DNA from: Porphyrobacter sp.
GTDB lineage: Bacteria > Pseudomonadota > Alphaproteobacteria > Sphingomonadales > Sphingomonadaceae
NCBI GenBank assembly: GCA_027531395.1
Contig: JAPZRO010000003.1
Span: 186,001 to 250,000, forward strand
Direction of reading: 5' to 3'
Length of the DNA: 64,000 nucleotides
Shown: in pieces, positions 1,728 through 28,982 of the stretch
Position numbering within the stretch: position 1 is the first letter of the stretch
How the letters are laid out: the number at the start of each line of letters is the position of its first letter
The notes under the pieces: generated by a model
Databases searched by the model: none
Told to the model about the DNA's origin: nothing
What the model saw: the letters and a program-made list of their open reading frames with translations, nothing else
Position numbers and translations under genes: made by a program

Positions 1728-2258
1728 ATGGCGATTTCGACGGGAGGCGGGGGCGATACCCCCATGTCCGACATCAACACCACGCCGCTGGTGGACGTGA
1801 TGCTGGTGCTCCTGATCATCTTCCTCATCGCGGTCCCGGTGGCGATCCAGACGATCGAGAAGCTGAAGATCCCTGTCTTCGAATCAGTCGAATCGAAGAA
1901 CAAGGTGGAAAACCTTCAGCTCACCGTCAGCACCACCGACGCTGCCGGTCGCAGCGCCGGGGAGCCGGGCTTCGAAGGCGCCTCGCGTGGCGGGGAATGC
2001 CGGGTCTACTTCAACAACATCACCCCCGTCTCCTCCGAAGAGCTGTATGACGAGGCGTTCAACCGTCTCGATGCGATCGTGAAGAATGCGGGCGGCGTTG
2101 AAGCGATCATGGCCGATCCCGAGAAGATCCCGCAGGTCCACATCCGCGCTGACGTGAACGCGCCGTGGCGCTGCGTTGCGGGCACGATCTACAATGTTCA
2201 GGCCGCCGGCTATCCGACCGTCGGGTTCATCTCGAACCCGGTCGAGCCCGGCATCTGA
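1728..2258 (+). CDS. exbD: Biopolymer transport protein ExbD, long form
   Basis: ExbD/TolR-family inner-membrane protein (176 aa), the proton-accepting partner of ExbB. A short cytoplasmic N-terminus leads into MSDINTTPLVDVMLVLL, where the Asp after PLV is the conserved membrane aspartate. A periplasmic domain follows. That domain is longer than in the next ExbD and contains two cysteines (in GECRVYF and PWRCVAG), which could form a disulphide; this is inference. The start has AGGTAGGA upstream. The next exbD begins 24 bases downstream, so the two are probably co-translated. Confidence 0.93.
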   Translation: MAISTGGGGDTPMSDINTTPLVDVMLVLLIIFLIAVPVAIQTIEKLKIPVFESVESKNKVENLQLTVSTTDAAGRSAGEPGFEGASRGGECRVYFNNITPVSSEELYDEAFNRLDAIVKNAGGVEAIMADPEKIPQVHIRADVNAPWRCVAGTIYNVQAAGYPTVGFISNPVEPGI

Positions 2259-2282
2259 GCCTGAGGAAGAGGAGTAACTGAC

Positions 2283-2714
2283 ATGGGTATGTCCGGAGGC
2301 AAACTCGACGGCGAACCTATGATGGACATGAACATGACGCCGCTGATCGACGTTCTGCTCGTTCTGCTGATCATGTTCATCATCACCATCCCGGTGGCGA
2401 CCCACTCGGTCGACATCGATCTCCCGCAGGGCAACCCGCCGCCGCAGGACATTGTGGTCGATCCGGTCAAGAACAAGCTGGTTCTGACCCAGGCCGACCA
2501 GATCCTGTGGAACGGCACCCCGGTGGATTCGGGCCAGCTGGTCACCCTGCTGAGCGAGACCACTCGCATGGCGGTCGAGCCCGAGCTGCAGTTCGAGCCC
2601 GAACCGCTTGCGAGCTACGATATCTCGGCCAAGGTGCTGCAGATCATCAAGACCTCGGGCGTGACCAAGTTCGGCTTCGTCGGGAACGAAAAGTACCGCG
2701 CGTTCGGCAAGTAA
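2283..2714 (+). CDS. exbD: Biopolymer transport protein ExbD
   Basis: Second ExbD (143 aa). The N-terminus MMDMNMTPLIDVLLVLLIMF carries the conserved aspartate of the single membrane helix. A compact periplasmic domain ends in KFGFVGNEKYRAFGK. The start is supported by GAAGAGGAG upstream. It is last in the tonB-exbB-exbD-exbD run and is followed by a clear hairpin terminator. Two tandem ExbD genes after ExbB are usual in sphingomonads and xanthomonads, where the second copy can be needed only for some substrates. Confidence 0.93.
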   Translation: MGMSGGKLDGEPMMDMNMTPLIDVLLVLLIMFIITIPVATHSVDIDLPQGNPPPQDIVVDPVKNKLVLTQADQILWNGTPVDSGQLVTLLSETTRMAVEPELQFEPEPLASYDISAKVLQIIKTSGVTKFGFVGNEKYRAFGK

Positions 2715-2766
2715 GCACCGCGCTGCGGCATCGCCCGGTCGTTGACGGGGCATTGCACAATCATCG

Positions 2767-2799
2767 AAGGGGCGTTGCGAGCGATCGCAGCGCCCCTTT
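2767..2799 (+). terminator. Rho-independent-type terminator of the tonB operon
   Basis: A 12-bp stem (2767-2778 with 2787-2798, one G-U pair) has an 8-base loop and is followed by TTTC. It lies about 50 bases after the second exbD and separates it from the third. Confidence 0.7.
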
Positions 2800-2931
2800 C
2801 GCTTTAAGGGCCGCTCGCATCCGGTTGCACTCCGCATACCGGTACGCGTTAGGCAACCTCTTGTTTGTGGGTTAGAATTGCTCCCGCAGCGGGCGCGGCC
2901 CCTTCGCGCCCCTGTTCAAGGAGACGCGACC

Positions 2932-3366
2932 ATGCCCCATGCCGTGACCCGCCCCAACCTCTACGCCCCCCGCCCCCGCCCGATGGGCGAAATGAACGTC
3001 ACCCCCTTCATCGACGTACTGCTGGTACTGCTGATCATGCTGATCCTCGCCATCCCCGCGCCGGTCCATGTCACCCCCGTCGACCTGCCGAGCGAGCGCG
3101 CGAAGCCCATGCTGCCGGTGCTCGAGCAGAACACCATTGCCATCGACGCCGCTGACCGGCTGCTGTGGAACGGCACCGCCGTCTCGCCCGACACCCTGCG
3201 CCTTCAGGTCGCCGCTGCCAGCGCGCGCGGGGACCAGACGCTGCTGCGCTTCGCCCCCGATGCTGCGGCGAGCTACGACACCGCCGCGCGCACCATCGCG
3301 CTGATGAAGGAAGAGGGTGCGGAGAGCTTCGCCTTCGTCGGCAACGAGAAGCACCGGGACTTCTGA
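2932..3366 (+). CDS. exbD: Biopolymer transport protein ExbD, third copy
   Basis: Third ExbD/TolR-family protein (144 aa), close to the second copy. It has GEMNVTPFIDVLLVLLIMLI with the membrane aspartate, a DRLLWNGTAV stretch mirroring the second copy's QILWNGTPV, and the same FAFVGNEKHRDF ending. This points to duplication of exbD2. The ATG at 2932 is chosen because AAGGAG lies just upstream; in-frame codons from 2878 have no such site. A terminator separates it from the main operon, so it is probably expressed separately. Its stop is only 10 bases from the parS palindrome. Confidence 0.9.
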   Translation: MPHAVTRPNLYAPRPRPMGEMNVTPFIDVLLVLLIMLILAIPAPVHVTPVDLPSERAKPMLPVLEQNTIAIDAADRLLWNGTAVSPDTLRLQVAAASARGDQTLLRFAPDAAASYDTAARTIALMKEEGAESFAFVGNEKHRDF

Positions 3367-3376
3367 GGCACCGATG

Positions 3377-3410
3377 TTCGCCAAATGTTTCACGTGAAAC
3401 ATTTGGCGAA
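3377..3410. promoter_or_regulatory. parS: parS centromere site inside a 34-bp perfect palindrome
   Basis: The central 16 bases (3386-3401), TGTTTCACGTGAAACA, match the established ParB-binding consensus TGTTNCACGTGAAACA exactly. The symmetry continues 9 bases on each side without a mismatch and there is no loop. It lies between the convergent ends of exbD and the helicase gene, so it could also end transcription. No T-run is present and a loopless stem is a poor terminator, so parS is the better reading. mipZ, whose product binds ParB-parS complexes, is about 5 kb away. Confidence 0.85.
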
Positions 3411-3422
3411 TGCCGCCCTCCG

Positions 3423-5882
3423 CTAATCCCCCTCGCGCGGGTCGTCGGGGCGCATCGCGGTTGCGATCAGCCCCTCGGCCTCGATCAGCAACTCGTCGTC
3501 CACCGCCCCCTGCGGCACCGCCTCGCGCCCGATCATCGTCATCACCGGCACGGCGAGCGGGGAGACGCGCTCCAGCTCGACATGCACCAGCTCGCGCTCA
3601 GAGCGTTCGAGCAGATCGGCCAGCCGCCCCACATCCGTCATCCGCGCCCGCGCATCGGCCCAGGCGGCCTCGATCAGCACGTGATCGGGCTCGTATTTGC
3701 GCAGCACGTCGTAAATCAGATCGGTCGAGAAGGTGACCTGCTTGCCGCTCTTGCGCTGCCCGGGATGCTGGCGCTCGACGAGGCCCGAGATCACCGCCAC
3801 CTCGCGGAAGGCGCGGCGAAGCAGGTGGCTTTCGGTGACCCACTCGACAAATTCGCCCGTCAGTATATCGGGCGAGAGCAGCGGCGCTGGATCGGTGACG
3901 GGCTTCAGACCCCACACGGCAAGGCAATAGTCGTTGGCCACGAACCCGCCCGGCAGTAGCCCGCGATCCTCCATCCGCCGGGTGATCAGCATCCCGAGGC
4001 TCTGGTTCGCGTTCCAGCCCTCGAAGGTGTAATAGGCGGTGTAGTGCTTGCCGCCGTGCGGGAAGCTCTCGACCAGCAGCTCGCCCGGCGCGGGCAGGCG
4101 GCTGCGCCAGTCCTGCATCTCCAGCCATTCGCGCACATCGTCGGGAAAGCGCCCCCAGCCCGCCCGGTCGGCGAGCATCGCCTGCACGCGGGTGCTGAGG
4201 TGCGTGGTGAGCGGCATCCTGAGGCCGCCGTAGCTCGGAATGGTGGCGCTCTTCTTGGCTGCGCGGACAGTGACATCCATGTCCTTCACCCCCTCGACCT
4301 CAAGGCTCATGCCGGCGAAGAAGAAGGTGTCCCCCGGCGAAAGCTGAGCGGCAAAACGCTCCTCGACCTTGCCGAGACTGCGGCCGTTTTTGAACCGCAC
4401 TGTCAGCATCTCGCTATCGACGATGATCCCGGCGTTCATCCGGTGGCGCTGCGCCTGGTTGGGGTGGGCGAGCCGCCACGTCCCGTCCTTCGCGCGCACG
4501 ATCCGCTGGAACCGGTCATAGGCCTTGAGCGCATAGCCGCCGTTGGAGACGAAGCCGAGCACGCGAGCGAACGTCGCCGCATCGACCCAGCTATAGGCAA
4601 GGCTGCTGCGCACCTCGGCCAGCAGCGCGTCCTCGTGGAACGGCCCGGCGCAGGCGCAGGCCATGACATGCTGGGCGAGCACGTCGAGGCTGCCGGGGCG
4701 GAAGGCCTCGCCGTCGCGCTGGCCCTCGTCGACCGCGTCCTTGGCCGCCATCGCTTCGAGAAATTCGAAGCGGTTGCCCGGCACCAGCACCGCGCGGCTC
4801 GGCGTGTCCAAGCGGTGCCCCGCCCGCCCGATCCGCTGGAGCAGCCGCGATGAACCCTTGGGCGCGCCCATTTGCACGACGAGATCGATGTCTCCCCAGT
4901 CGATCCCGAGATCGAGGCTGGCGGTGCACACCAGCGCGCGCAACTCGCCCCGCGCCATCGCTTCCTCGACCTTGCGGCGGGCCTCGGTGCTGAGCGAGCC
5001 GTGGTGGATGCCGATCGGCAGGTGATCCTCGTTCTCCTCCCACAGGCACTGGAAGATGAACTCCGCAAGGAAGCGGGTGTTGGTGAAGATCAGCGTGGTG
5101 CGGTTGGCCTTGATCGCCTCGTAAAGCTGCGGGACGGCCCAGCGTCCGGCGTGCCCGCCCCACGGCACGCGCTCTTCCTGGGGCAGGAGGATTTCGACTT
5201 CGGGCTCGGAACCTTCCTCGCCGATCACGAGGTCGGCGGCGGCGTTTTCTCCCGCATCGCCGGTTTGCGGCGCGAGCCATTCCTGAAAGTCGCGGGGGTT
5301 CGCCAAGGTGGCCGACAGCGCGACCCGCTGCGCCCGCGGGGCGAGCGCGTGCAGCCGCGCGAGGCTGAGCGCCAGCAGATCGCCGCGCTTGTCGGTGGCA
5401 AAGGCGTGCACCTCGTCGATCACCACCCGCTTGAGCCCGGCAAACAGATCAGCGCTTTCGGGGTAGGAGAGCAGCAGCGAGAGACTTTCCGGCGTGGTCA
5501 GCAGGATGTGCGGCGGGCGTTCGCGCTGGCGCTTCTTGCGGTCGGAAGGGGTATCGCCGCTGCGGGTCTCGACCCGGATGGGCAGGCCGATCTCCTCGAT
5601 CGGAGTGAGCAGATTGCGCTTCACATCCTGCGCCAGCGCCTTCAGCGGCGAGACATAGAGCGTGTGGAGGCCATCCGGCGGCGGCGCCCCTGCCGAGGGC
5701 GCGAAGTCGCACAGCGTCGGCAGGAATCCCGCGAGCGTCTTGCCCGCGCCGGTATCGGCCACCAGCAGCGCATGGCGGCCGGCGCGTGCCTTCTCGAGTA
5801 TCTCAAGCTGGTGCCGCCGCACCCGCCAGCCGCGCTGCGCGAACCAGTCGGCGATTTCGGGCGGGAGGGCAGTGTCGGTCAC
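3423..5882 (-). CDS. Ligase-associated DEXH-box DNA helicase (Lhr family)
   Basis: Superfamily 2 ATP-dependent helicase (about 819 aa). Walker A is ADTGAGKT at about residue 45. The DEVH box (VIDEVHAF) and the TASLDLGIDWGDIDLV and QRIGRAGHR motifs of the second RecA domain follow, then a long Lhr-type C-terminal region. It resembles the group usually encoded beside an ATP-dependent ligase, an exonuclease and a phosphoesterase in a DNA-repair cassette. None of those partners is visible here. A GTG at 5882 (VTDTALPPEIADWF) is preferred. A TTG at 5918 would add 12 residues that do not look conserved. It follows the DUF2059 gene by 42 bases and may share its transcript. Confidence 0.88.
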   Translation of the reverse strand: MTDTALPPEIADWFAQRGWRVRRHQLEILEKARAGRHALLVADTGAGKTLAGFLPTLCDFAPSAGAPPPDGLHTLYVSPLKALAQDVKRNLLTPIEEIGLPIRVETRSGDTPSDRKKRQRERPPHILLTTPESLSLLLSYPESADLFAGLKRVVIDEVHAFATDKRGDLLALSLARLHALAPRAQRVALSATLANPRDFQEWLAPQTGDAGENAAADLVIGEEGSEPEVEILLPQEERVPWGGHAGRWAVPQLYEAIKANRTTLIFTNTRFLAEFIFQCLWEENEDHLPIGIHHGSLSTEARRKVEEAMARGELRALVCTASLDLGIDWGDIDLVVQMGAPKGSSRLLQRIGRAGHRLDTPSRAVLVPGNRFEFLEAMAAKDAVDEGQRDGEAFRPGSLDVLAQHVMACACAGPFHEDALLAEVRSSLAYSWVDAATFARVLGFVSNGGYALKAYDRFQRIVRAKDGTWRLAHPNQAQRHRMNAGIIVDSEMLTVRFKNGRSLGKVEERFAAQLSPGDTFFFAGMSLEVEGVKDMDVTVRAAKKSATIPSYGGLRMPLTTHLSTRVQAMLADRAGWGRFPDDVREWLEMQDWRSRLPAPGELLVESFPHGGKHYTAYYTFEGWNANQSLGMLITRRMEDRGLLPGGFVANDYCLAVWGLKPVTDPAPLLSPDILTGEFVEWVTESHLLRRAFREVAVISGLVERQHPGQRKSGKQVTFSTDLIYDVLRKYEPDHVLIEAAWADARARMTDVGRLADLLERSERELVHVELERVSPLAVPVMTMIGREAVPQGAVDDELLIEAEGLIATAMRPDDPREGD

Positions 5883-20749: not shown

Positions 20750-23700
20750 TCAGCTTCCGCTTTCGATCAAGCTGAAGGGTGCCCAGGCCCAGGGATCGGT
20801 CCAGCTCGGCTCCCATCCGGGAATAGCATCGCCCAGCACTGAGGTTCCGCTCCGGATGCCACGCAGCGCCAGTTGCAGCGCCTCGGCACGGGACAGGTCG
20901 GGACGGGCCGCCTTTATGCGGAAGGTCTCGCTGGTGATCGCGGCGCCGACCGTGTCGAGCACCGGCCAGTGGCTCACCAGCAGCGAACGGGCGCCGGCGA
21001 AAAAGAACGCCCGCGCCAGACCGGAGAGGCTCTCGTTGCTGCCGCCATCGGCGGGGCCGGCGGTGTTGCAGGCCGATAGCACGACCCAGTCGGCGCTCAG
21101 GTTCAGCGCGGCCGCCTCGCTCGCGGTCAGGTAGCCGTCATCGCTGCTACTGGCCTCGTCGGGCGGGGTCATTACAAGGCCGGGCTCGGCGTTCCCCTCG
21201 ATCTGCCCGGGCAGCATCGCATGGGTAGCGAAGACGATGATGCCGGCATTGGCGAGCAGCGCGGGGGACTTCACCCGGCTTTCGGTCGCGGCCTCGGCAA
21301 GCAGCAGGCTGTCTTCCGGACTGCCGAGCGTGCGCGCGATGGCTAGCAATTCGCGCCTTGTACCGGGCAGCGAGCTCAATTTCATTAGCGCGGCGGGCTC
21401 GGCGAGGTCATCGCTGCCGCGGACATTGGCGGTGGTGGCGCTCGAACTGCCCCGCGAAATCTCCTGCGCCGGGCCGAGGACGGGATCGCCAATCCCGACG
21501 AACCCCGGCGCGCTCGCCTCGCCGGCCTCGGCCGCGGCATAGGCGCGCAGGCTGGATACCGACGGCAAGGTCGCCAGCGCATAGCGGTCGCTCAGCCACT
21601 GGGTGCCCGCCAGCGCGGCGAGTTCTGCCTGCTCGTCGAAGCTTTGCCGCGGCGGCTCGCCCACCACCAGAATGCCCAGCGGAATGCTCCCTAGGCTCCC
21701 CCCGGTCACCGTGTAGAGCGTCCTGGCATCGCCGAGGCCCGACACGACCGGCGCGACGAGCTGCTGGTAGAGTGCCGCCGCCGCCTTGCCCTCGAACAGA
21801 TATTCGCCCGGCAGGTTCAGCGTGCAACTACCCGGATCGATCCGGCAGCGGACCGATGCGACCAGCCGGTCCATCTCAGCCCGGCTGATGTCAGCCTTGT
21901 GCCAGGCCTGACTGTTGGCCGAAATGGCGAAGCTGTAGACCGCATCGCCGATCGGCTGGATCATCAGCACGGCCTCGCCCGCGCGTAACCTTGACCGGGT
22001 TTGCGCGATCGACAGGCCGAAGGGGCGCGAGGTGTTGGCATAGGCGGGATAGCGCTGCCTGAGTTCCTCGGTCAGCTCCGCCAGCGCCCGGCGATCGCCT
22101 TCGAGCGACGCATCGCCGGCTACAGCGCCGGCTCTGTTTGCCAACGCGGCCTGATCGGAAGCATAGATCTTCGCCGCCAGCGCTGCCTGCCGGTCGATCA
22201 GCGCACCGAGTTCGGGATCACTGACCGCCGCCCTCGCCGCCGCTTCCAGCAGCGATGCCGCCGCCCTACTCTGTGCGAAATCCTGGCCTGCACGAAACGC
22301 CTCGTCCATCCCCTGCGAGGTGATGGTGCTCGACCCGAGCCGCACCTGCTTGCCTTCATAGGCCCAGTTGAGCGTGATCAGCGTCGAGAACGCCACCGCC
22401 AGCGGATCGGCGCCCGTCCCTGCCGAAGCCGTGCGGAAACCGAGGGGCTTGCCGGATGAATCACGGGCCGGCGTATAGCGCCGCTCGCGCGCATAGAAGG
22501 CGGCATTCCGCGCCGCGAAAAAGGCGGCATCGTAATAGTCGGGGTTCTTCAGCAAGGCGAGCGCACGGCGCGCTTCCAGCCGGGCGAGATTGGAATCGTG
22601 GAACGCGATTCCGTCGCTCACGCTTTCGAAGCTCAATTGCTGGTAGATCGTCGCTGCTTCCTTCCACTTGCCCTCGCAGGCCAGCAGGATCGCATGGGCT
22701 TCATCCGAAGGGCGCCTGAAATCGCCCACCAGCGCATAGGTCTCCGCTGCGACGAGCGCCTCGACCTCCGCGCGCTTGGTGTCGTTGCAGCGCCCCTGAT
22801 AATGCGCGTTGAATACCTGTCCGGCGAGGATATCGATGGCGAGCCGCAGCGACTGCTTTGGCCCGGTCTCGAACGCGGCGGCGGCCATTTGCCACTGGGC
22901 GGCTGCCTGCTGGTGTTCGCCCAGCGTATCCAGCCGGCGGGCGTTGAAGCTGTGGGCCTGCGCGGGCAGCACGGCGGCGGCGCGTCTGGCGAGCGCCTCG
23001 GCCTCCTGGCTACGTCCCATGGCGGAGAGCGTCTGTGCATAAAGTAGCATCGCCCGCGCAGTGGCGGGGTGGGCGAGGCCATTGACCTTCTCGCGGGCGG
23101 CCACCAACCCGCGCGCTTCTTCCAGCGCAGGCTCTGCATCGCCCATCCGGTCAATCACCTCGACCAGTCGCTCCCGCACTTCCAGCGTCGCCGGGGCGTC
23201 CGAACCATGGCCGCCGGCGAGAAAATCGCGGATCTTTTCGAGGCAGACCCTCTGGTCCTCTCCGCGAAAATCCGTGGCGGCTCTGGACAGCCGCAATTCA
23301 GCCCCGGACAGGCTGTCCGGTGCGCCGTCGCATTGCCCGAGGTCGAAAGCGATCGGCAGACCGTCGGACACGATGCTGGTGGCGACCATCGGCGAGCGGC
23401 CCAGTGCCTCGACCAGAGCCAGCCGCGCCCGTGCGGTGGCCTGCAGCGTGTTCGGCGCGTCATAGCCCTCGATATCGAGCAGCAGTTTGGCGGCCTCGGT
23501 GTAATGCTGCTGGGTTTCGAACATGCGGCCGGCTTCCCCGTCCGCCTCGGCGAGGGCAAAAAGCAGGCGCGCCCGGCCGACATCCTTTTTTTCATACCCT
23601 TCCAGCAGCGACCGGACCAGCGTGGTCGCCTCGTCGATCCGGCCGAGCCCGGTGAGCGACCGCGCGAGCGACGCGCAGGCCACGGCAACCGAGACCGGCT

Positions 23701-24322
23701 CCGGCGCGGGGGCTGCGCGTTCGGCATCGCAGGCCAGCCGCGCCAGCCCTTCGGCTTCGGCAAAGCGGCCCTGCATTCGCCGCGCATAGGCGATATCGAG
23801 CCCTAGTCGCGCCTTTGCCAGCGGATCGAGCCCCGGCTGCCGGGCGATGACCTGCGCATTTTCCTCGAACAGGGCGACTGCTTCTGCCAGCCGGCCCAGC
23901 TGGACGAGATTGCGGGCGCGATCCTGCCGCGCGAGATAGGTCCAGCTTTTGTCCGGGCCGAGGCGCCGTTCAAGCGCCGCAACATTCGTCGCCAGCGCCG
24001 CCTCTGCCTCCTGATGCTTGCCGATCCGCGACAGGCTGCCCGCCCGCAGCGTGTCGAGCCGCAGCGCGAGCGGATGGTCCGGCCCGTAGGTCTCGTCGAC
24101 CAGCGGCTTGATCTTGTCGATTGCCGAGATCGTGTTGGCCGGAAAGGCCGATGCTTCGTGGAACCCGATCGTCTGCCAACCAGTATCGAGCTGCCGTGCT
24201 TCCTCCTCGGTGGGCTGACGCAGATCGGGCGCCATAGAGTCCGAGGCTGATTGCGGCTGGGCAAAAATTGCAACGGGCGCTGTTAACCAGACTGTCAAAC
24301 AGATCATGGCCAGCCATCTCAT
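20750..24322 (-). CDS. Exported TPR-repeat protein with a C-terminal CHAT peptidase domain
   Basis: A 1190-aa protein. A signal peptide (RWLAMICLTVWLTAPVAIFA) is followed by about 750 residues of tetratricopeptide-like helices (repeated EAE-ALA-R-A patterns such as GRFAEAEGLARLA and GRSQEAEALARRA). The C-terminal third is a CHAT domain, the caspase-like clan CD peptidase. Its catalytic His lies in IIVFATHAMLPG (about 1031) and Cys in VVLSACNTAG (about 1083), followed by LARAFFFAGARSLLVSHWPV. Both catalytic residues are intact. The ATG at 24322 is preferred for its signal peptide and the AGGA site. Such proteins are thought to process or scaffold partners; the target is unknown. No gasdermin or other known CHAT partner is adjacent. 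Confidence 0.88.
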   Translation of the reverse strand: MRWLAMICLTVWLTAPVAIFAQPQSASDSMAPDLRQPTEEEARQLDTGWQTIGFHEASAFPANTISAIDKIKPLVDETYGPDHPLALRLDTLRAGSLSRIGKHQEAEAALATNVAALERRLGPDKSWTYLARQDRARNLVQLGRLAEAVALFEENAQVIARQPGLDPLAKARLGLDIAYARRMQGRFAEAEGLARLACDAERAAPAPEPVSVAVACASLARSLTGLGRIDEATTLVRSLLEGYEKKDVGRARLLFALAEADGEAGRMFETQQHYTEAAKLLLDIEGYDAPNTLQATARARLALVEALGRSPMVATSIVSDGLPIAFDLGQCDGAPDSLSGAELRLSRAATDFRGEDQRVCLEKIRDFLAGGHGSDAPATLEVRERLVEVIDRMGDAEPALEEARGLVAAREKVNGLAHPATARAMLLYAQTLSAMGRSQEAEALARRAAAVLPAQAHSFNARRLDTLGEHQQAAAQWQMAAAAFETGPKQSLRLAIDILAGQVFNAHYQGRCNDTKRAEVEALVAAETYALVGDFRRPSDEAHAILLACEGKWKEAATIYQQLSFESVSDGIAFHDSNLARLEARRALALLKNPDYYDAAFFAARNAAFYARERRYTPARDSSGKPLGFRTASAGTGADPLAVAFSTLITLNWAYEGKQVRLGSSTITSQGMDEAFRAGQDFAQSRAAASLLEAAARAAVSDPELGALIDRQAALAAKIYASDQAALANRAGAVAGDASLEGDRRALAELTEELRQRYPAYANTSRPFGLSIAQTRSRLRAGEAVLMIQPIGDAVYSFAISANSQAWHKADISRAEMDRLVASVRCRIDPGSCTLNLPGEYLFEGKAAAALYQQLVAPVVSGLGDARTLYTVTGGSLGSIPLGILVVGEPPRQSFDEQAELAALAGTQWLSDRYALATLPSVSSLRAYAAAEAGEASAPGFVGIGDPVLGPAQEISRGSSSATTANVRGSDDLAEPAALMKLSSLPGTRRELLAIARTLGSPEDSLLLAEAATESRVKSPALLANAGIIVFATHAMLPGQIEGNAEPGLVMTPPDEASSSDDGYLTASEAAALNLSADWVVLSACNTAGPADGGSNESLSGLARAFFFAGARSLLVSHWPVLDTVGAAITSETFRIKAARPDLSRAEALQLALRGIRSGTSVLGDAIPGWEPSWTDPWAWAPFSLIESGS

Positions 24323-24540
24323 GTTCCTGAGACTAACAACCAGTGGGAATGGTGCAAGCCTGCTTCCGCGCATTTGCGGATCACGCTCTACGTCCTAGCT
24401 GGGGCGGTGTGAGGTAGTCATTGCAGGGGCGCTAACTCCACGGCGGCAGGTGTGCGCCTGTGCGCCAGAGACAACAACCCAAGCCTGCCCCGTTGCGCTC
24501 CAGTCCAAGAGCATCCCGTCGACTAGCTAGCGCCTCCAAT

Positions 24541-25220: not shown

Positions 25221-25268
25221 GATAGCGCCCCGGCATTCTCAATATTCAAGCCGACGGACATTCTTTGG

Positions 25269-25285
25269 GTGACCATTGTGGTCAC
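25269..25285. promoter_or_regulatory. Perfect inverted repeat upstream of the short recombinase
   Basis: GTGACCA and TGGTCAC (7 bp each) flank a 3-base centre. The repeat ends just before the GGAGA site of the recombinase gene, so it could be a repressor operator or a leader hairpin. Confidence 0.4.
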
Positions 25286-25297
25286 TGGAGAATGCTC

Positions 25298-25930
25298 ATG
25301 GAGACGCCTGAAACAGAAATGCATGCCGCCAATCGACCGGTCTGGAACGCCGGGCGAAGCGTGGGCGCGAAGCGCGCACTAAAGCCGAAACAGATTTGGG
25401 AGATCCGCTTTTTTCTCAATGAACGACGCCGCGTGCGTGATCGCGCGTTGTTCGACCTGGCGATCGACAGCAAGCTGCGTGGCTGCGACCTTATTCGAAT
25501 GAAGATCGGCGACATCGTCAATGGTGGTCAGGTCAAGACGCGCGCGATTGTGATGCAGCAAAAAACAAGCCGCCCTGTGCAGTTCGAGCTCCTGCCAGAT
25601 GCTCGAGCCAGTCTGCTGGCATGGCTTGAACGCCGTGGCGGCACGGTAGACGATTATGTCTTCCCAAGCCGCGTTGATCGCAACGGCCACATCAGCACCC
25701 GGCAATATGCCAGACTCGTCGATGAATGGGTGACCGGGATTGGCTTGATTCGATCCGAATATGGCACCCACTCTCTTCGGCGAACCAAGGCATCGATCAT
25801 CTACAGGGCGACCGGCAATCTACGTGCGGTCCAGATCCTTCTCGGTCATAGCAAGATCGAGAATACCGTGCGCTATCTCGGGATCGACGTCGAAGACGCG
25901 CTTGCCCTTGCCGAGAACACGGAGATTTGA
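25298..25930 (+). CDS. Short tyrosine recombinase/integrase
   Basis: A 210-aa site-specific recombinase consisting of little more than the catalytic domain. Arg is in DSKLRGCDLIRMKIGDI, HSLRRTKAS carries the His and second Arg, GHSKIENTVRYLG carries the second His and tyrosine. All active-site residues are present. It lacks the arm-binding domain of the island integrase. Stand-alone proteins of this kind occur on plasmids and islands of alphaproteobacteria. The ATG at 25298 has GGAGA at the right distance; one at 25292 is too close. It adjoins a truncated gene and a repeat, so it may belong to an older nested element. Confidence 0.85.
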   Translation: METPETEMHAANRPVWNAGRSVGAKRALKPKQIWEIRFFLNERRRVRDRALFDLAIDSKLRGCDLIRMKIGDIVNGGQVKTRAIVMQQKTSRPVQFELLPDARASLLAWLERRGGTVDDYVFPSRVDRNGHISTRQYARLVDEWVTGIGLIRSEYGTHSLRRTKASIIYRATGNLRAVQILLGHSKIENTVRYLGIDVEDALALAENTEI

Positions 25931-26182: not shown

Positions 26183-26202
26183 CTATATATCACGAAATAT
26201 AG
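26183..26202 (+). promoter_or_regulatory. Mo-box-like operator (ModE-type binding site)
   Basis: CTATATA, six bases, AATATAG: an interrupted palindrome matching the known ModE recognition pattern (TATATA-N6-TATATA core) with one deviating base. It ends 26 bases before the TTG start of the TBDR, a repressor position. The ModE-type gene lies at the other end of that receptor gene. The AT-rich site stands out in this GC-rich DNA. Confidence 0.6.
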
Positions 26203-26228
26203 AATTGGCAGGCACTGAGGGGTAAGTC

Positions 26229-28588
26229 TTGCGCACCATTCTTTGGCTCGGGCTGCTCGGCAGCGCTGCATGCATGTCGCCCGCTTCCGCGATGGCTGAA
26301 GATGCTTCGACAGACGACGCGTCACGCGGCGCCATTTTCGTTACGGCACGCCAGCGGGCGGAAGATGCGCAGGATGTGCCCGCCGCGCTTTCGGTGGTCG
26401 ACGCGCGCTGGCTCGAGCAGTCCTACACGCTCAACACCCGCGACCTGACGGTGCTGGTGCCCGCGCTCAACTATTCCTCGGCCAATCCGCGCAACACTGC
26501 CTTCACCATCCGCGGGCTGGGGTCGAGCGTGGTCGCGGTCAGCCAGGCCAATGACGGGCTGGAGCCGGGGGTGGGCTACTATGCCAACGGAGTCTATCAC
26601 GCGCGGCCCGCGACCGCCGCCTTCGACTTTTCCGATATCGAGCGGATCGAGGTGTTGCGCGGGCCGCAGGGGACTTTGTTCGGGAAGAACACGACGGCGG
26701 GCGCGATCAACATCGTCTCGGCCGCGCCCGGTTTTTCGCGCAGCTTCTCCGCCGAACTGAGCGGGGGCGAGCGGGCTTTCGCGCAGGGGCGCTTTTCGGC
26801 GACCGGGCCGCTGGCGGGCGACACGCTCGCCTATCGCCTCTCGGGCACCTTTACCCGGCGAGACGGGGTGCTGCGCAATGTCGCCAATGGCCGCGACCAG
26901 AACACGCTCGGCGCGCAGGCGGTGCGAGGGCAGGTGCTGTGGCAGCCTTCGCAGGACTTTCGGCTCAGGGTGATCGCCGACTTCGCCAATTTCGATTCCG
27001 AGTGCTGCACACAGGTCTTCCTGCGGGTCGGCACCAGCCTTCGCCCGGCGGGGCGGCAATATCCGGCGCTGGCGGCAGCGGCAGGCTATGCCCCGCCGAG
27101 CACGAACCCCTATGACCGCCTGACCGATATCGACGCAGCGCTCGGCGTCGACACCAGCGAGGGCGGCGTTGCGGCGACCGCGGACTGGGACATTGGCCCG
27201 GCGACACTCACCTCGATCACCGCATGGCGCTTCTGGAACTGGGACGCCGCGAACGACCGCGATTACACGGGCCTCCCCATCCAGCTGATCCAGCGCATCC
27301 CCTCGCGGCAGGACCAGCTCAGCCAGGAAGTGCGGATCGCGTCGGACGGGGATCGCCCGCTGAGCTATGTCGCGGGGCTCTATGTCTTCCGGCAGGTGCT
27401 GACCGGTAGCCCCAACTCGGTCTTCGGCCCGTATGGTGCGCCGTGGCTGATCGGGGCGACGACCGGCGCCAATGCCACCCCGGTGCCCGCCAACCTGCTC
27501 GACGGCTATGGCCAGACCGGGGACACGCGTTTTGCGGTGAACAGCTATGTCGCCTTTGGCGAGGCGAACTGGCGGATCGCACCGCGTCTGACGCTGACCG
27601 GCGGCCTGCGATACACCTACGAGAGCAAGGAGGGCGACTACAGCACGCAGGTGTTCGGCGGGCCGGTGGTCACCTCGCCCGCGCTCGTCAATGCGCGGCT
27701 CGGCGTGCTGCGGCCTCAGACCTATTCGGCGAACGACAGCGAAGGCAGCCTTTCGGGCCGCGCCAACATCGCGTGGCAACCCACGGACGACGTGCTGCTC
27801 TACGCCAGCTTTGCTCGGGGTTTCAAATCGGGCGGGATCAACATGTCGGGCCTGCCGCTCGATGCGAACAACCAGCCCACACTGGCCACCGCCGTGATCG
27901 ATCCGGAGCGCAACACGACGTGGGAGGCAGGGATCAAGTCGGCGCTGTGGGGCGGGCGCCTGACCCTCAACCTTGCCGCCTATCACACAACGGTTCGCGA
28001 CTTTCAGGCGACGGTGGTGGACTCGAGCCAGACCGAGGCGCTGCGCGGCTATCTTTCGAACATCCCGGCGGTGCGGGTGCAGGGGTTCGAGGCCGATGCG
28101 CGGCTCAGGATCGGAGATCTGACGCTGGTCGGCGCTCTGGCCTATGGCGACGGGGAGTATACGACTACCCAGCGGGCCCCTGTCCGCTCGAACGCCAGAC
28201 CGCCGCGACCGCGGCCTGCGACCTGACGGGCGAGCGCCTCGCCGGCCTGCCGCGCTGGTCGCAGACCTTGAGCGCGGACTATGCCGTGCCGCTCGGGCCG
28301 GGCGCGGTGTTCCTCCATGCCGACAGCAACTGGCGCAGCGGCTATCCCGGCGACCCGAGCCTTTCCCGCTTCACCTATATCGAGGGCCACAACCTCACCA
28401 ATGCCAGCATCGGCTACCGGCGCGAGGACGCGACCGGCAAGGGCTGGGAGATCGCGGTGTTTGCGCGCAACCTGCTGGGCGCGGACTGTATCCAGAACCT
28501 CACCATCCAGGCGGGCAATTCGGGGCTAATCCTCGGCACGCCCAGCGATCCGCGCACCGTGGGGGTGACGCTCAGGTGGCGGAGCTAG
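26229..28588 (+). pseudogene. TonB-dependent receptor, frameshifted near its C-terminus (putative ModE-controlled receptor)
   Basis: Outer-membrane receptor of about 785 aa if the shift is ignored. A TTG start after GAGGGGTAAG opens a signal peptide (RTILWLGLLGSAACMSPASA). The plug (about 35-150) contains IERIEVLRGPQGTLFGKNTTAG. The barrel runs in one frame to about 28162, where that frame turns to non-barrel sequence and stops at 28225. The expected YPAGPCPLE, CDLTGERLAGLPRWS and the final GVTLRWRS continue in the frame two bases along, to 28588. A single missing base after TATAC (28158-28162) explains this. A Mo-box-like site precedes it and a ModE-type gene overlaps its end by 17 bases, suggesting molybdate, tungstate or a chelate as substrate (inference). 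Confidence 0.85.
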
Positions 28589-28982
28589 ATTTGTTCTGAG
28601 GGGCCCCCTCGCTACGCTTCGGGGGGAGGGGAGCAGGGAGCAACGCTTTGGCGATGGCGGCAAAGCCCGCGCTGGCGGCGCCTTCGGCATCGCCTTGCAG
28701 CTGGCGGTAACCGGCCAGCACCGCCTCGCCCAGCGGCGTCAGGTGCGCGCCTGCCTTCGGGTTGCCCGGGGTGGTCGCCACCAGCTGCCCCTGCCAGCAG
28801 CGGTTCATGGCATCGACCAGCAGCCAGGTGCGGCGGTAGCTCATCCCCATCGCCCGCCCGGCGGCCGAGATCGAACGGTGTGCGGCAATCGCATCGAGCA
28901 GATCGGCCTTGCCCGGGCCCATGGCGATCTCGTCGCCGCACATGATCTGGATCTTGAGCTTGAGAGGTGAGGGCCGGATCAT
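28572..28982 (-). CDS. ModE-type winged helix-turn-helix regulator (single domain)
   Basis: A 136-aa protein matching the DNA-binding half of ModE. LKLKIQIMCGDEIAMGPGKADLL is followed by DAIAAHRSISAAGRAMGMSY and RRTWLLVDAMNRC, then HLTPLGEAVLAGYRQLQ. It lacks the C-terminal molybdate-binding Mop domains of E. coli ModE, so sensing, if any, must differ. The ATG at 28982 gives the normal ModE N-terminus; the upstream extension is not credible. It is convergent with and overlaps the TBDR gene whose 5' end carries a Mo-box-like site, so it probably represses that receptor. Confidence 0.82.
   Translation of the reverse strand: MIRPSPLKLKIQIMCGDEIAMGPGKADLLDAIAAHRSISAAGRAMGMSYRRTWLLVDAMNRCWQGQLVATTPGNPKAGAHLTPLGEAVLAGYRQLQGDAEGAASAGFAAIAKALLPAPLPPKRSEGAPQNKSSSAT

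Follow-up and report, generated by a model that had tools for sequence, protein, structure and literature searches.

INTRODUCTION

In Escherichia coli, ModE represses the mod genes at high molybdenum (Mo) concentration, and the consensus of its Mo-box is of the TATAT type. Molybdate uptake has been described from the periplasmic ModA inwards, passage through the outer membrane being mostly left to porins. The locus studied here shares with E. coli ModE (1b9m, 1o7l) the DNA-binding domain of the regulator, and in sphingomonad relatives modA is preceded by a palindrome of the TATAT type also seen in the Mo-box before E. coli modABC. In contrast to the E. coli system, however, the ModE of our locus has no Mop domains, its target would be an outer-membrane receptor, and the source genome is without modA. 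The ModE-like protein of Campylobacter jejuni, which lacks the metal-binding domain, reportedly controls Mo and W transporters (Taveirne 2009, as cited in PMC7759655); this protein is likewise a regulator of metal oxyanion uptake, but its known targets are transporters and no link to a receptor was seen. The closest match by profile and fold is a putative ModE of Agrobacterium (2ijl, chain 'Molybdenum-binding transcriptional repressor'), also a one-domain protein (135 aa), although Cys15 of the sphingomonad proteins is missing from the aligned 2ijl sequence.

Metal transport by TonB-dependent receptors (TBDRs) is represented among the profile matches of our receptor to solved structures by OprC (copper) and CntO (metal-pseudopaline), which match the type A receptor defined below weakly (about 55 and 89 bits) and handle another metal; the best match to a solved structure was the pesticin receptor (131.9 bits). 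We know of no ModE control of OprC or CntO. One outer-membrane route for molybdate has been published, the T6SS-ModA-IcmP system of Pseudomonas aeruginosa, which according to passages of that paper uses secreted ModA and the outer-membrane insulin-cleaving metalloproteinase IcmP, not a TBDR (PMC8602904). Passages of a genomic survey report that 278 of 3683 Mo-using bacteria have no known transporter and suggest further uptake systems; a word search of that text returned neither 'ModE' nor 'TonB' nor 'outer membrane' (PMC6147048), and a word search of the text of a 2024 TBDR review returned 'molybd' 0 times (PMC11658791). Each of the three elements, the stand-alone ModE protein, the Mo-box and the TBDR, is of a known kind; among the matches listed from the open-licence papers searched, with subscription papers and regulon databases outside the scope, we found no ModE- or molybdate-controlled TBDR, no Mo-import role given to the TBDR class, and neither the combination nor the predicted substrate described below.

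RESULTS

A frameshifted TonB-dependent receptor gene behind a Mo-box

The window, a stretch of 64,000 nucleotides from a Porphyrobacter sp. genome, contains the following features:

26183-26202, no strand assigned: Mo-box, predicted ModE operator, palindrome CTATAT-N8-ATATAG.
26229-28226, plus strand: in-frame part of a TonB-dependent receptor of type A, with TTG start and Plug and barrel domains; residues 1-652 are homologous, followed by an out-of-frame stretch to the stop.
28154-28588, plus strand: remainder of the type A receptor in another reading frame past the frameshift (second tblastn piece, residues 642-786 of the relative L030).
28572-28982, minus strand: stand-alone ModE DNA-binding protein of 136 aa without Mop domain, assigned by a TIGR00637 match and by profile and fold matches.

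The preliminary description had reported a TBDR gene at this place. Its domain assignment stands, both Plug (PF07715, 62.6 bits) and barrel (PF00593, 126.8 bits) scoring above the Pfam cut-offs, but the gene is not one open frame, a frameshift having been overlooked. The open reading frame from 26229 ends at 28226, and the final part lies in a different frame that ends at 28588. By tblastn with the intact relative L030, residues 1-652 (91.7% identity) and 642-786 (88.3%) were found in two frames; the frameshift lies near 28150-28185, with the last ~134 residues in the other frame, and as assembled, the window copy therefore has no complete barrel in a single frame. The receptors of several relatives, among them L018, L019, L028, L029 and L030, run in one frame of 786-790 aa. 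Nei-Gojobori dN/dS values against three relatives were 0.117, 0.163 and 0.130 before the frameshift and 0.161, 0.112 and 0.151 after it for the same relatives, showing that selection on the receptor is not relaxed past the break. Because the relatives are intact and dN/dS is not relaxed, the break is either recent or a sequencing error, and the receptor would work in this strain only in the latter case.

It is possible, at somewhat less than even odds, that the receptor of this strain is a pseudogene and the pair idle here, as only 652 of 786 residues are in frame. Against this, dN/dS is as low after the shift (0.112-0.161) as before (0.117-0.163), the Mo-box is intact, and the source genome is a draft assembly of 19 contigs. 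A pseudogene in this strain would concern one copy and is compatible with Mo import by the intact receptors of relatives.

The type A receptor of G032, a metagenome assembly, is likewise split (L017 2052-4326, with open reading frames 3526-4326 and 2052-3671). All 11 type A receptors checked (11/11, e.g. L018 5484-7844) have two adjacent cysteines in a CC..V..[RK] context. With 18 aligned sequences as input, AlphaFold gave a poor model of the receptor (mean pLDDT 61.1).

A one-domain ModE tail-to-tail with the receptor

The ModE gene runs from 28982 down to its stop at 28572, tail-to-tail with the receptor gene and overlapping its 3' end by 17 bp (28572-28588). It scored 50.6 bits against TIGR00637 (E 1.5e-13), below the curated cut-off of 98.5, but its top match by both profile and fold was 2ijl (TM 0.90 by target), followed by E. 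coli ModE, which identifies a ModE DNA-binding domain. The closest relative is the protein of Erythrobacter oryzae (94% identity). The Pfam domain search found no TOBE/Mop domain, so that the protein is not of the full-length ModE type with C-terminal Mop/TOBE molybdate-binding domains, and PF03459 (TOBE/Mop) was found in none of 16 genomes including the source genome, with 12 of 14 control genomes positive. The earlier account of a single-domain ModE-type gene that overlaps the receptor and lacks Mop domains thus holds, and the lack extends to the whole genome. Since ModE is Mop-less and no Mop/TOBE domain was found in the genome, any Mo sensing would proceed without a known molybdate-binding domain.

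Relatives of this protein were collected by a scan of sphingomonad genome contigs with the ModE alignment, from which the best 80 of 592 loci (1.34 Mb, 65% GC) were analysed. These loci were retrieved via ModE peptide patterns, so that residues conserved within these patterns carry no weight as evidence. In the stand-alone ModE proteins of these best 80 of 592 loci, Cys15 is conserved in 75/80 and Cys62 in 80/80; on sequence grounds, the two are possible Mo-sensing residues.

The Mo-box precedes modA and receptor genes in ModE loci

In the same best 80 of 592 loci, the exact Mo-box occurred 22 times, more often than any other hexamer palindrome with an 8-bp spacer (the next reached 10). The remaining spacers between 0 and 20 gave two occurrences in total, and no other permutation of the half-site occurred more than once. 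With one mismatch allowed there were 40 sites, and a gene was scored as fronted by a site when the latter stood between -330 and +260 bp from the start of the open reading frame. By this measure 39 of the 40 stood at the 5' end of modA, a type A TBDR, a type B TBDR, a small protein or a porin, the exception being one site in L080; the profiles used for these gene kinds (A, B, S and P) were built from a part of the loci that they scored. The 22 exact sites front type A receptors (8), type B receptors (8), modA (3), a porin together with modA (2) and a small protein together with modA (1), i.e. a TBDR in 16/22 cases. modA adjoins ModE in 27 of the 80 loci, in 16 of which a site with at most one mismatch lies at its 5' end. 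As 39/40 sites front genes of these kinds and 16/27 modA loci have the site, the Mo-box behaves in this family as the operator of molybdate transport, common to the receptors and to modA. Some rows repeat a genome: L031 shares its contig with G032 and L043 shares its own with G025, and L029 and G370 (L203) are one and the same place.

The small protein behind the Mo-box is ~180-200 aa long, secreted-looking and without Pfam match. The porin gene (PF13372, alginate export family) and modA are transcribed away from each other, and an exact Mo-box lies in the space between the two (L095 11864-13282, L098 11741-13222).

Two receptor types beside ModE

In the best 80 of 592 loci, a type A receptor lies near ModE in 12/80, with a site of 0-1 mismatch at 10/12, and a type B receptor in 10/80, with such a site at 10/10. 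The two type A exceptions are L093, which has two sites with 2 mismatches, and L047, where a 40% relative near ModE has no site. Type B receptors share 21-23% identity with a type A receptor, and therefore two receptor subfamilies carry the same operator. The type B loci, with the Mo-box at the 5' end, are L034 (10938-13073), L045, L051, L053, L062, L065, L074, L092, L103 and L104; in 8/10 of them a protein of ~180-240 aa without Pfam match adjoins the receptor.

Receptor and ModE are convergent in Erythrobacter and Blastomonas, and follow one another on one strand, ModE first, in L066 (N. lentum), L077, L093 and L105 (Sphingomonas sp. Leaf21). In L078 (Novosphingobium colocasiae), a modA-modB-modC-modE cluster and a type A TBDR that has an exact site face each other in convergent orientation (modA 233.5 and modB 212.2 bits, above the cut-offs; modC 208.2 bits, below it and covering the first 211 of 353 positions). 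The pair of receptor and ModE thus recurs amid differing neighbourhoods and orientations. In 34/80 ModE loci (best 80 of 592), modA and TBDRs of both types were missing from the vicinity; no neighbour recurred in more than 5 of these 34. One of them (L036) has a distant TBDR behind ModE that shows no site with at most one mismatch.

Immediately upstream of the Mo-box in the window lies a short integrase-like open reading frame of 221 aa (25265-25930, plus strand), which encodes the catalytic portion of a tyrosine recombinase (PF00589); it is much shorter than the matched XerC/XerD profiles and may be left over from a mobile element. This reading frame and the scarcity of other recurrent neighbours (below) fit, but do not prove, a small mobile unit of receptor and ModE. 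On the minus strand, 20750-24373 encodes a protein of 1207 aa that has TPR domains and a caspase-like CHAT domain.

These neighbourhoods bear on the ligand. It is unlikely, in our estimate, that the ligand of the receptor is not Mo but, for example, an iron siderophore or the substrate of a molybdoenzyme, with ModE only coupling receptor expression to Mo status and possibly acting as an activator, a role that ModE can also take in E. coli. The nearest named profile is indeed a siderophore receptor (TIGR01783), but the in-frame part of the window receptor scored 117.2 bits and the intact L018 receptor 137 bits, far under the cut-off of 223.5. Fur control was considered and rejected: the best match to a Fur consensus was ordinary in 6/7 upstream regions, the exception being L032, whose match was reached by only 2% of shuffles. 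A non-Mo ligand would also leave it to be explained why the same operator precedes modA, why it is carried by receptor types of 21-23% identity and why a type A receptor adjoins modABC in L078. A common third partner gene was looked for in 17 loci (14 pairs and 3 other ModE loci), where, with modE, the TBDR and the out-of-frame overlaps of both set aside, only modB/modC and a common short-chain dehydrogenase type recurred in at least three, indicating no such partner. That tungstate rather than molybdate is the substrate appears very unlikely: ModE-type systems can respond to both oxyanions, but the modABC neighbours in the family match the molybdate families TIGR01256 and TIGR02141 above cut-off.

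Site, receptor and regulator occur together

The Mo-box of the window (CTATATATCACGAAATATAG, 26183-26202), described earlier as a near-consensus ModE site at the receptor start, proved to be a perfect palindrome that ends 26 bp before the TTG start (26229) and is the single occurrence of CTATAT-N8-ATATAG in the 3,196,185-base source genome (G000), where the reversed pattern has 0 exact matches. No sigma-70 promoter was found at the Mo-box by consensus. When nine upstream regions were aligned on the Mo-box, an alignment that itself favours the site columns, 13/20 site columns were invariant as against 8/100 flank columns.

In the genus, ModE is present in 9/73 genomes. A type A orthologue (at least 85% identity) was found in 7/9 ModE-positive and 0/64 ModE-negative genomes, and the exact Mo-box likewise in 7/9 and 0/64; conservation of site, receptor and regulator in relatives was a check proposed in the preliminary description. 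The two sets of seven genomes are not identical. The ModE-positive genome G023 has no type A receptor; its sites lie beside modABC and a type B receptor, the latter recognised by eye. In G014 the receptor is present and a contig end cuts the upstream DNA, so that the site is not assessable. All six genus orthologues with upstream DNA, that of the window included, have the exact site (6/6); three of them are intact (G003, G013 and G025), two are split by frameshifts (G000 and G032) and one is cut at a contig end (G017). Lack of the Mo-box upstream of intact orthologues, which the preliminary description had named as refuting its reading, was thus not seen. Intact receptors with the exact site also occur in Erythrobacter oryzae, Blastomonas natatoria, Novosphingobium colocasiae and Sphingomonas sp. 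Leaf21. As a control, the next-best receptor matches (42-45% identity, 16 loci) had no site with fewer than 2 mismatches.

Across 298 genomes of the family, the exact site was found in 39/100 ModE-positive and 11/198 ModE-negative genomes (p 1.6e-12); the exact-match search found none in the other 61/100 ModE-positive genomes. From the 57 exact sites in family genomes, 30 loci were inspected. In ModE-positive genomes, 25/26 of these front a TBDR (16; type A 4, including that of the window, and type B 12) or modA (9), and 11 of the 25 are far from modE; in ModE-negative genomes, none of the 4 inspected sites fronts either gene (0/4). The comparisons establish, at the level of sequence, the site, its conservation, the pairing of receptor and ModE and the link to modABC. 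That the palindrome is a chance AT-rich match is extremely improbable: exact sites do turn up in the 11 ModE-negative family genomes and in 5/47 genomes outside the genus, none of these five having this ModE, but the site is unique in the source genome, its columns are more invariant than the flanks and it is absent from the 64 ModE-negative genus genomes.

Molybdenum supply and use

The source genome gave no match to modA (TIGR01256). modA is absent from all 7 genus genomes with the receptor (one of which, G013, is 74% complete) and was found in 2/73 genus genomes (G023 and G049), beside ModE. moaA scored above cut-off in 76/81 genus genomes, the source genome included, indicating that this organism makes Moco; the drafts G013 and G017, which have the receptor, gave no moaA above cut-off. 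As modA occurs in 2/73 genomes although moaA occurs in 76/81, the genus must import molybdate by an unrecognised route, and in the source genome no path for Mo across the inner membrane was recognised. Proteins of molybdoenzyme families are encoded in the source genome, with two places each for PF02738 and PF00384; one of the PF00384 proteins may be NuoG. Inspection by eye of a 19 kb list of open reading frames around moaA of this genome gave no recognisable Mo transporter.

The receptor as a general replacement of ModABC was considered and rejected, since among other genomes with a Mo-box TBDR modA was present in 26/32 rows (type A 7/12, where two rows are one genome, and type B 19/20); the receptor is therefore as a rule an addition to ModABC. 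In most genomes of the genus both the receptor and modA are lacking; given moaA in 76/81 genomes, the receptor is probably a scavenging aid and not essential.

DISCUSSION

The preliminary description had proposed that the site and the regulator together point to Mo uptake through the outer membrane, and this proposal gains support from the same palindrome before modA in the family and from the receptor beside modABC in L078. From these sequence comparisons the regulatory link of the receptor to ModE and the Mo-box is strong. Our best explanation, with a probability of about 0.7, is that the TBDR is repressed by ModE and imports molybdate or a Mo chelate across the outer membrane. The adjacent Mop-less ModE would bind the Mo-box and repress the receptor when Mo is plentiful; upon Mo limitation this repression would be lifted and the receptor made, and the TonB-energised receptor would then take molybdate or a Mo chelate across the outer membrane while Mo is short. 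For ModE binding, repression, Mo transport and the substrate we infer as much from gene position and regulon. Weighing against this explanation are the lack of modA, of a recognised inner-membrane path for Mo and of Mop/TOBE domains in the source genome, the 61/100 ModE-positive family genomes in which the exact-match search found no site, the 34/80 ModE loci (best 80 of 592) with neither modA nor a receptor of the two types, the loci L036, L047 and L093, the lack of moaA above cut-off in the drafts G013 and G017, and the frameshift of the window copy. In relatives with ModE, the Mo-box stands almost only before genes of molybdate uptake and such receptors, and therefore the intact receptors likely import Mo. 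Some of the named hosts (Blastomonas natatoria, E. colymbi) are fresh-water or pool organisms, and Mo is scarcer in fresh water than in sea water.

We would give even odds to a broader proposal, namely that sphingomonads have dedicated TonB-driven outer-membrane Mo importers, with at least two unrelated subfamilies separately recruited to one ModE operator, run by a one-domain ModE that senses Mo without a known molybdate-binding domain in the cell, possibly via two conserved cysteines. If this is true, Mo sensing without a Mop domain would be directly testable. The family-wide operator fronts TBDRs more often than modA (16 versus 9 of 26 inspected loci); Mo would gain a class of outer-membrane transporter, and the operator would help to assign orphan TBDRs of sphingomonads.
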